Shown here: positions 12,865 to 15,971 of the stretch, piece by piece
Layout of the letters: the number at the start of each line of letters is the position of its first letter
How positions within the stretch are numbered: position 1 is the first letter of the stretch
Origin: Pseudomonadota bacterium
GTDB taxonomy: Bacteria > Pseudomonadota > Gammaproteobacteria > Burkholderiales > Casimicrobiaceae
NCBI GenBank assembly: GCA_021784125.1
Contig: JAJXTF010000007.1
Span: forward strand, 1-35,427
Direction: 5' to 3'
DNA length: 35,427 nt
Position numbers and translations under genes: made by a program
The notes under the pieces: model-generated
What the model saw: only the letters and a program-made list of their open reading frames with translations
Told to the model about the DNA's origin: nothing
Databases searched by the model: none

Positions 12865-13459
12865 GCCGCCGCGCCTCTTCGAGGCGCGCGATCAGCGCGC
12901 GCATGGCCTGCCCGCGATGCGACAGGCCGTTCTTGGTTTCGAGCGGCAACTCGGCGCCGGTCAGTCCCGTCACCGCGTCCTCGAAATGGGGATCGTAGCC
13001 GAAGCCGCCGCGGCCTCGCGGCACGTCGACGATCCTGCCGTGCCAGGCACCCTCGGCGATGATCGGCTGGGGGTCGTCGGCGTGATGGACCAGCACGAGC
13101 ACGCAGTAGTAATGCGCACGGCGATCGGCGACGCCGGCGAGTGCTTCGACCAGCGCGGCGTTGTTGCGCTCGTCCGATCTCGGTCCGCCCGCGTAGCGCG
13201 CACTGCGCACCCCGGGCGCGCCGCCCAGCGCGTCGACGCAGACGCCGGAATCGTCTGCGAGCGCCGGCAGTCCCGTCCGGGCACTGGCGTGCCTCGCCTT
13301 CGCGAGGGCGTTCTCGATGAAGGTCACGTGGGGTTCGTCCGCCTCGCCGACCCCGAGTTCCGCCTGCGGGATCACCTCGACGCCGAGCGGCTCGAGGAGC
13401 CGCCGGAACTCGCGCAGCTTGCCGGCGTTGCTCGATGCCAGGACGAGGCGGGAGATCAC
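12854..13459 (-). CDS. rdgB: XTP/dITP diphosphatase (non-canonical purine NTP pyrophosphatase)
   Basis: RdgB hydrolyses ITP, dITP and XTP to monophosphates, keeping inosine and xanthosine out of nucleic acids. Signature blocks are [12 protein letters not shown] at the start, [44 protein letters not shown] and LSHRGQA. The start is a GTG at 13459 that overlaps the rph TGA (GTGA). The track's long ORF upstream of this is antisense or out of frame to rph. The resulting 201 residues match the family. Confidence 0.95.
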
Positions 13460-14178
13460 TTCGCGAGCGCGAGACGCTGCGCCGCGTGCAGCTGGGCGAT
13501 GCCGTTCCTGGCGAGCTCGAGCAGCGCGTCGAACTCCTCGCGCGTGAACGGGGCGCCTTCCGCCGTGCCCTGCAGCTCGACGAAACCGCCGGCCCCGGTC
13601 ATCACGACGTTCATGTCGGTGTCGCAGCCGGCATCCTCGGCATAATCGAGATCGAGCAGCGGCGTGCCTGCGACCACGCCCACCGACACCGCGGCGACAC
13701 GATCGCGCAGCGGCTCGCCGGCGAGAAGGCTGCGTCCGCGGCACCAGGTGATCGCGTCGGCCAGCGCGACGTAGGCGCCGGTGATCGACGCACAGCGCGT
13801 CCCTCCGTCGGCCTGCAGGACGTCGCAGTCGATGCGGATCGTCCGCTCGCCCAGCGCGGAAAGGTCGATGATCGCCCGCAGCGAGCGGCCGATCAGGCGC
13901 TGGATTTCCTGCGTGCGCCCCGACTGCTTCCCCTCCGCCGCTTCGCGGCGCATCCGCGTGTTCGTCGAGCGCGGCAGCATGCCGTACTCCGCCGTGAGCC
14001 AGCCCTGGCCCTTGCCCTTGAGGAACGCCGGCACACCCTCGTCGACGCTGGCGGTGCACAGGACGCGGGTGTCCCCGGCTTCGACCAGCACCGAGCCTTC
14101 GGCGTGCCGGGTCCAGCCGCGGCCGATCGTCAGCGGGCGCAGCTCGTCGGCGCGACGGCCGTGGGCACGCGAGCTCAC
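13456..14178 (-). CDS. rph: Ribonuclease PH
   Basis: This phosphorolytic 3' exoribonuclease trims tRNA precursors to their mature 3' ends. The 240-residue product contains [63 protein letters not shown] and [10 protein letters not shown], covering the whole family profile. It is the first gene of the overlapping chain with rdgB, hemW, the small gene and chaC. A near-perfect -10 box lies about 90 bases upstream, so this group seems to have its own promoter. Confidence 0.97.
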
Positions 14179-14307: not shown

Positions 14308-14940
14308 TCAGTCGACGCGGATGCCCAGCGTGTCGACCAGCGCTCTCCCGCGCGCGAGACCGGCGCGGATGTCGGCCGCGAATTCCTCCGAGCTGTTGCC
14401 GACCACCTGCTGCCCGGCATCGACGATCTGCCTTTGGATTCCCGGTTCGTGAACGATGCGCACCAGGTCCGCATTGAGCCGGTCGACGATGCGCGACGGT
14501 GTTCCGTGCGGGGCGAGGATGCCGTACCACGAGACCATGTCGAAGCCCGGATAACCCTGCTCGGCCACGGTCGGCGTGTTCGGCAGCGAAGGCACGCGCC
14601 GGTCACCGGTGACCGCGAGCGCGAGACCCGTGGCCGCAGGAAATCCCGCGGGAGCCTGCAGCACCAGCGACTGCAGCAGGCGCACCGAGTTGTCGTCGCA
14701 GGGCAGAACAAGGCGCGGCGCCACGACGTCGACCATCCTGGCCAGCGCCGCCAACCACTGCATCGGTGACGCATCGTCGGGCAGCAGGCCGCAGCGGCGG
14801 ACGTAGCGACTCTTCGCCGCGAGCGAATTCCTCGGGGTGAGAAGAAAGACCTCGAATCCGGCCTTCGCGAGGGCGCCGGGGATGCGCGCAGTGCCGATGT
14901 ACTGCGTCGCCGTCGACACCAGCAGGATGGCGTCGTTCAT
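14308..14940 (-). pseudogene. Chimeric ORF: pre-ATP-grasp N-terminus joined in frame to a Bug/TctC solute-binding-protein C-terminus
   Basis: The open frame encodes 210 residues. Residues 1 to about 100 (MNDAILLVSTATQYIGTA to LVLPCDDNSVRLLQSLVL) look like the pre-ATP-grasp lobe of carboxylate-amine-ligase-type ATP-grasp proteins, but the ATP-binding part never follows. From about residue 106 the sequence becomes the C-terminal half of a tripartite-tricarboxylate (Bug/TctC) periplasmic binding protein: LAVTGDRRVPSLPNTPTVAE, GYPGFDMVSWYGILAP, TPSRIVDRLNADL. A cytosolic enzyme fragment and a periplasmic fragment without its signal peptide cannot form either normal protein, so I read it as a deletion fusion. 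The ATG at 14940 overlaps the SDR stop (ATGA), so it is probably still translated. A misassembly is the main alternative. Confidence 0.72.
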
Positions 14941-15971
14941 TCCGGCGAGGACGCCCGCAGCATCGCCGCGTCGACTGCGAACGGCCGCGGATGCCAGCCC
15001 GTCGCCCGCGTGAACGGCGTCGAATCCACTTCCAGCGATCCGGTCAACCGGTCGATCAGCGCCCGGCGCCCCGTCAGCGTGCCCGCGAGGCGCAGCAGCG
15101 CGACGGGCACGGCCACGAGACGCGGCTCGACACCCAGCGCATGCGCGATCGCGCGCACCAGCCCGGGGGTCGAGACGGGTCTTTCGTCGGCGATCAGGTA
15201 GATGCACCCGCCGGCAGTGCCGACGACGGGCCCGGCTGCGAGCGGTGCAAGGATTGCAGCGTCGATCGCCTCGAGCAGTCCGGAGAGCCCGAGCAGCGAG
15301 CGCCGGTTGTCGATGGCCCCGAAGGGAAGCCATCGCCTCGACGCGACCGCATCGACCAGCCTTTCGAAGTTGCCCCGGGCGTGCGCGCCGTAGACCAGCG
15401 GCAGCCGGAGCACCACCGGCAGCACCGACGTTCCCTGCGCGATGCGTCCGAGCGCGACTTCTGCCGCATGCTTGCTGCGCGCATAGGCATCCCGCGGCGC
15501 AGGCGCATCGTCGGCACGAAACGGCCGGCCCGGCAGGGTTGCCTCGCCGTTGACCTTGATCGTGCTCGCGAACACGAAGCGCCCCACACCCGAGGCGACC
15601 GCGGCCTCGGCGAGCTTCGCCGTCACCTCGACGTTGGCGCGATGATATTGCGCGTCGGGATCCGCGGCACGCTCGTCGATCACGTGCGCGCGTCCGGCCA
15701 GGTGGACCAGTGCCGTGCTGCCCGTCAGTGCACGGGCCAGGTCCGCGACGCTGGCAGTCTCGAGGTCGACTTCGATGAGATCGACCTGTCGCGGCAGGCG
15801 CTCCGCTGCCCGGCGCCGGTCACGGACCAACGCGCGCAACGTTGCGCCCCCGAGCGGCGGACCCGTCGGGCCGACAGCGGCTTGCGCGCCCGACGCGACC
15901 CGCGCGCACAACGCGCGGCCGATGAATCCCGTCGCGCCGGTGATCGCGATCGCGGGCCCGCTCACAGCCAT
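14937..15971 (-). CDS. NAD-dependent nucleotide-sugar SDR (WbpV/UDP-QuiNAc dehydrogenase-like)
   Basis: The 344-residue extended SDR has ITGATGFIGRAL at the N-terminus, VHLAGRAHVIDE, and FASTIKVNGEATLPGRPF, followed by a YARSK catalytic motif. The IKVNGE...PGRPF segment is typical of the WbpV group, which acts on UDP-N-acetyl-hexosamine derivatives in O-antigen synthesis. The ATG at 15971 overlaps the glycosyltransferase stop by 10 bp. A GTG two codons later gives a GTGA overlap and is an equal candidate. In polysaccharide clusters this enzyme is usually followed by a sugar-phosphate transferase, but here a truncated ATP-grasp fusion follows. Substrate identity is inferred. Confidence 0.85.
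   Translation of the reverse strand: MAVSGPAIAITGATGFIGRALCARVASGAQAAVGPTGPPLGGATLRALVRDRRRAAERLPRQVDLIEVDLETASVADLARALTGSTALVHLAGRAHVIDERAADPDAQYHRANVEVTAKLAEAAVASGVGRFVFASTIKVNGEATLPGRPFRADDAPAPRDAYARSKHAAEVALGRIAQGTSVLPVVLRLPLVYGAHARGNFERLVDAVASRRWLPFGAIDNRRSLLGLSGLLEAIDAAILAPLAAGPVVGTAGGCIYLIADERPVSTPGLVRAIAHALGVEPRLVAVPVALLRLAGTLTGRRALIDRLTGSLEVDSTPFTRATGWHPRPFAVDAAMLRASSPE

Follow-up and report, generated by a model that had tools for sequence, protein, structure and literature searches.

Among the closest described parallels to the locus studied here is the ppe38-71 chimera of Mycobacterium tuberculosis, a gene fusion made by a multigene deletion. In that species a fusion product was reported at the protein level, and one chimera was termed functional (PMC7671302). 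The stretch of DNA that we analysed, hereafter the window, spans 35,427 nucleotides and carries an open reading frame that we consider very probably to be the scar of one deletion within an ATP-grasp→Bug gene pair, and most likely a recent, non-functional (dead or dying) remnant. The event itself is ordinary gene decay in one bacterial species. The features that we refer to are as follows.

14308-14940, minus strand: chimeric ORF, 210 aa
14614-14940, minus strand: N-terminal part of an ATP-grasp family gene (~codons 1-108), stopping short of the ATP-grasp domain; assigned by paralogue identity, family profile and the G011 orthologue
14308-14622, minus strand: 3' part of a TctC/Bug solute-binding protein gene, comprising its final ~104 codons and the stop codon; assigned by Pfam, Bug27 and identity to G011
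14614-14622, minus strand: deletion joint GCGCTCGCG; placed by nucleotide comparison with G011 and 37 Bug genes
14937-15968, minus strand: SDR/epimerase gene, bordering the inserted cassette on the left, with an ATGA overlap with the chimera; Pfam Epimerase, E 5.3e-27, its orthologue adjoining rph in most congeners
13456-14178, minus strand: rph (RNase PH) gene, bordering the inserted cassette on the right; named from the preliminary description and the sequence, without a family search

A preliminary description of the window, made from the sequence alone, had proposed that the ORF at 14308-14940 is an in-frame chimera of an ATP-grasp N-terminus and a TctC/Bug C-terminus, and had advised searching the two halves separately. 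Pfam, Bug27, paralogues and a family profile all agree with that proposal. The C half matches Pfam TctC (PF03401; E 9.5e-15, query 107-206 to model 174-273 of 274) and the Bug27 structure 2qpq (E 5.5e-15, query 102-210 to chain residues 193-301), and is 83% identical to its G011 counterpart over residues 124-210. Residues 1-104 alone found no match in Pfam, and the N half was identified via full-length paralogues and a 383-position family profile built from 18 of them. It matches positions 1-109 of this profile (E 1.4e-44). ATP-grasp paralogues encoded on other contigs of this genome share 49-66% identity with it at their N-termini, and the G011 orthologue shares 77%. Full-length members of the family match the ATP-grasp models PF02786, PF15632 and PF02655, beginning at residue ~127. 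Solved ATP-grasp structures align to the profile from position ~118, and the homology of the chimera stops at 109. GC content by codon position follows a coding pattern in both halves (0.69/0.50/0.86 and 0.72/0.48/0.85). The chimera is thus a real sequence feature, far beyond chance.

What has been lost is substantial on both sides. The ATP-grasp catalytic domain is missing, so the product does not qualify as an ATP-grasp ligase. The family-specific N-terminal domain is present, with 38 of 43 conserved columns kept. On the Bug side, ~235 residues are gone from the start of the precursor, amounting to two thirds of the protein. Nothing in the chimera corresponds to residues 1-192 of the Bug27 chain, so the two-lobed fold is incomplete. 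The Bug signal peptide is likewise absent, the N-terminus being, by inspection, the ATP-grasp start MNDAILLVSTATQY. The proposal that both parents were truncated at the joint, with loss of the signal peptide, was therefore correct. An AlphaFold model of the chimera gives pLDDT values of ~82-95 for residues 1-90 and mostly below 50 for residues 110-164, although the low confidence in the C half is partly due to an input alignment that held one close relative of that half.

The parental arrangement survives in a congener. At the orthologous site in G011 (contig C118), the genes lie on one strand in the order SDR, ATP-grasp, Bug, rph, with the two parents separate and adjacent, and in the same strand and order as the halves of the chimera. 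On either side this site aligns collinearly with the window, at 82% and 81% nucleotide identity, and ~1.23 kb of it is missing from the window. Since the parental order is found at this very site in a congener, a deletion is the correct explanation of the fusion. The ATGA overlap between the SDR stop and the start of the chimera, pointed out in the preliminary description, is present and shared with the ATP-grasp start in G011, where the ATP-grasp stop in turn overlaps the Bug start (TGATGA). It is plausible, judging from this overlap, that the chimera is still translated through coupling with the SDR gene. The G011 copies are themselves damaged. Its ATP-grasp gene is shortened, with ~residues 136-190 gone and the frame changed, and its Bug gene has lost ~residues 186-253 in frame. 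Since the window retains the Bug sequence ALAVTGDRRVPSLPNTPT, which is absent from G011, the deletions in the two genomes are independent.

Homology with the G011 ATP-grasp gene extends to ~14614 and Bug homology starts at ~14622. The joint between them, GCGCTCGCG, lies in a short shared GCTCGC-like stretch of ~6-9 bases, and resembles both GGGCTCGCT on the ATP-grasp side in G011 and the ALAV codons of Bug genes on the Bug side. From this resemblance we infer a microhomology-mediated deletion, in which the parental bases themselves were lost. Measured against an intact pair, the deletion would have removed ~1554 bp. The sequence of events would be as follows. An ATP-grasp→Bug pair would have been inserted earlier between the SDR gene and rph. 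A single deletion of ~1.55 kb inside the pair would have removed the ATP-grasp gene from codon ~109 to its end together with Bug codons 1 to ~235, joining the ends in frame at the short shared GC-rich stretch. The predicted product would be an isolated pre-ATP-grasp domain followed by the final third of a periplasmic binding protein, presumably with neither ATP-grasp catalysis nor a signal peptide nor a complete binding fold.

The preliminary description had derived the left parent from the polysaccharide operon, whose 3' end the deletion would have removed, and the right parent from a separate Bug gene upstream of rph. It also suggested comparing relatives at this site. The rph orthologue is present in 19 of 22 genus genomes, and both flanks, SDR and rph, were found in 19 genomes, this one and G011 included. 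G011 does have separate ATP-grasp and Bug genes there, each of them shortened. In the remaining 17 of the 19, neither parent sits between SDR and rph, and members of the ATP-grasp family were found at this site in none of them. In 15 of the 17, the SDR-rph gap is only ~35-190 bp (from coordinates; for G021, from an SDR contig running into rph). Because both parents are missing there in the 17 other genomes, an origin of the left parent in the polysaccharide operon is not supported, and decay from a native operon is rejected. Nor is a separate Bug gene upstream of rph supported, as the ATP-grasp and Bug genes came in together as a pair. What stands of the original idea is the in-frame deletion, with the parents side by side in G011; its starting point, an operon end and an independent Bug gene, does not.

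A tree built on the SDR, rph and GT proteins places this genome (G000) outside a pair formed by G011 and G016, (G000,(G011,G016)), with support of 0.997. G016 lacks the whole cassette, and its matching flanks are separated by 41 bp that do not align. On the simplest history, the pair was gained once in the ancestor of G000, G011 and G016, and later eroded in three ways: G016 lost it completely, G011 underwent two internal deletions, and the genome studied here a single deletion that fused the genes. The two other long gaps in the genus hold different content. That of G014 is ~820 bp with a DUF4160 gene (L159, G014:C3:126600-129300), and that of G003 is ~610 bp with other content (L160, G003:C244:6800-9300). 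This extra DNA suggests that the SDR-rph junction may readily take up insertions in the genus.

An assembler could have joined ATP-grasp and Bug genes that remain intact in the organism itself. The assembly is a draft of 354 contigs, many ATP-grasp copies of the family sit at contig ends, and three deletions within one cassette in two drafts, counting the internal deletions in the G011 assembly, are a little suspicious. However, the ~6-9 shared bases at the joint are too short for the usual k-mer join, and nowhere else in the genome is the joint sequence repeated at length. The removed stretch occurs on no other contig at orthologue-level identity, its long matches being ~65%-identical paralogues, and the other ATP-grasp and Bug copies of the same assembly are intact. 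We therefore regard misassembly as unlikely. A different alternative, that the ORF belongs to an old, genuine fusion gene family, draws on its single continuous frame. Against this, G011 has two separate genes at the site, and no single match covered both halves in other genomes among 100 relatives and 399 genomes of the order. The occurrence of the same architecture in several species, which the preliminary description had named as grounds for abandoning a deletion, was looked for in these 399 genomes and found in none; a conserved ATP-grasp-Bug fusion family is thus refuted within the genomes searched, and we give this explanation almost no weight. Contigs seem often to end in or near ATP-grasp or Bug genes (G000:C9, G000:C153, G016:C161, G016:C251, and further G011:C35, G011:C139, G011:C211, G039:C370), a possible hint at repeats or strain variation at these loci.

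A further alternative is that selection has kept the chimera as a functional new protein, in which, say, a pre-ATP-grasp domain carrying a helical tail binds a small molecule. Relative to G011, dN/dS is 0.195 in the N half and 0.175 in the C half, compared with 0.31 for SDR, 0.10 for rph and 0.13 for GT. Both halves thus fall below the neighbouring SDR gene, a visible constraint that counts against a dead remnant. Changes affect 5 of the 43 conserved N-half columns, equal to the number in G011 and with no excess, and the N-domain is well predicted by AlphaFold. The open frame and its ATGA coupling point in the same direction. Yet the dN/dS values of 0.18-0.20 mostly date from before the deletion. 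The fusion occurs in one species only, the cassette is decaying differently in G011 and has been lost entirely from G016, and the chimera retains no catalytic domain, no signal peptide and only a minor part of the binding fold. The low dN/dS together with N-half columns as conserved as those of G011 indicates that the remaining sequence was constrained for most of its history; either the deletion happened recently or constraint on the fragment persists. If dN/dS beforehand was at least 0.1, the deletion would fall in about the last 20% of the branch. A recent dead or dying remnant is favoured because no second species has the fusion and the same cassette is decaying in both sister lineages, and we consider a selected new function very improbable.

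The preliminary description saw no known reason for fusing a cytosolic ligase to a periplasmic receptor. This is misleading, because the two are recurrent neighbours, and the ATP-grasp/Bug pair is found elsewhere in the genome and the family. An ATP-grasp gene adjoins a same-strand Bug gene in 17 of 34 examined family loci, the window excluded, which is very unlikely by chance if ~2-5% is expected (an assumed rate). These loci include G000:C117:5725-7913, G000:C153:3-2086, G025:C34, G027:C205, G031:C407, G039:C370 and G017:C63, among others. Stop/start overlap is frequent within the pairs. Their neighbours differ at the loci sampled, and include a TonB receptor, an O-methyltransferase, a MaoC/phosphate acyltransferase, a molybdopterin-binding protein and HDOD. 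The ATP-grasp gene family is patchy, occurring in 14 of 64 genomes of the taxonomic family. A plasmid search with the ATP-grasp protein returned only ~25-27% matches, in Granulicella, so nothing indicates that the close family is carried on plasmids. We found no literature on the pair. In two sister genomes, a ClpA-like gene is immediately followed by tandem ATP-grasp genes belonging to this same family (L044, G000:C9:5-1938; L054, G016:C368:28055-30363).

We speculate that the pair is an uptake-linked ligase module, which is possible. More specifically, and only tentatively, the chimera could be what a deletion left of one copy of a dispersed and so far undescribed module of two genes, in which a cytosolic ATP-grasp ligase modifies or activates the ligand imported with a periplasmic Bug receptor, and which occurs in several unrelated contexts with fast turnover at the SDR-rph site. 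With the help of the recurrent pair, ligands and functions of some of the many orphan Bug receptors may become easier to assign. The chimera itself is of minor importance. It illustrates clearly that a deletion between neighbouring genes can leave an open, annotatable and probably functionless hybrid ORF, and warns that such ORFs should not be taken for new enzymes.

Compared with known proteins, the chimera resembles each parent in part. Its C half follows the TctC/Bug family (PF03401; Bug27, 2qpq) to the last residue, but it lacks about two thirds of such a protein, including the signal peptide. Its N half is the pre-ATP-grasp N-terminus of ligases near PF02786, PF15632 and PF02655 (carbamoyl-phosphate synthase and Ter-operon-type domains), but the whole ATP-grasp domain is deleted. 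As in M. tuberculosis ppe38-71, a deletion across neighbours has joined parts of two genes in frame (PMC7671302). The partners here, in contrast, come from unrelated families, and the chimera is known from sequence alone. It is another case of the kind described there, a deletion between neighbouring genes, here with unrelated partners.
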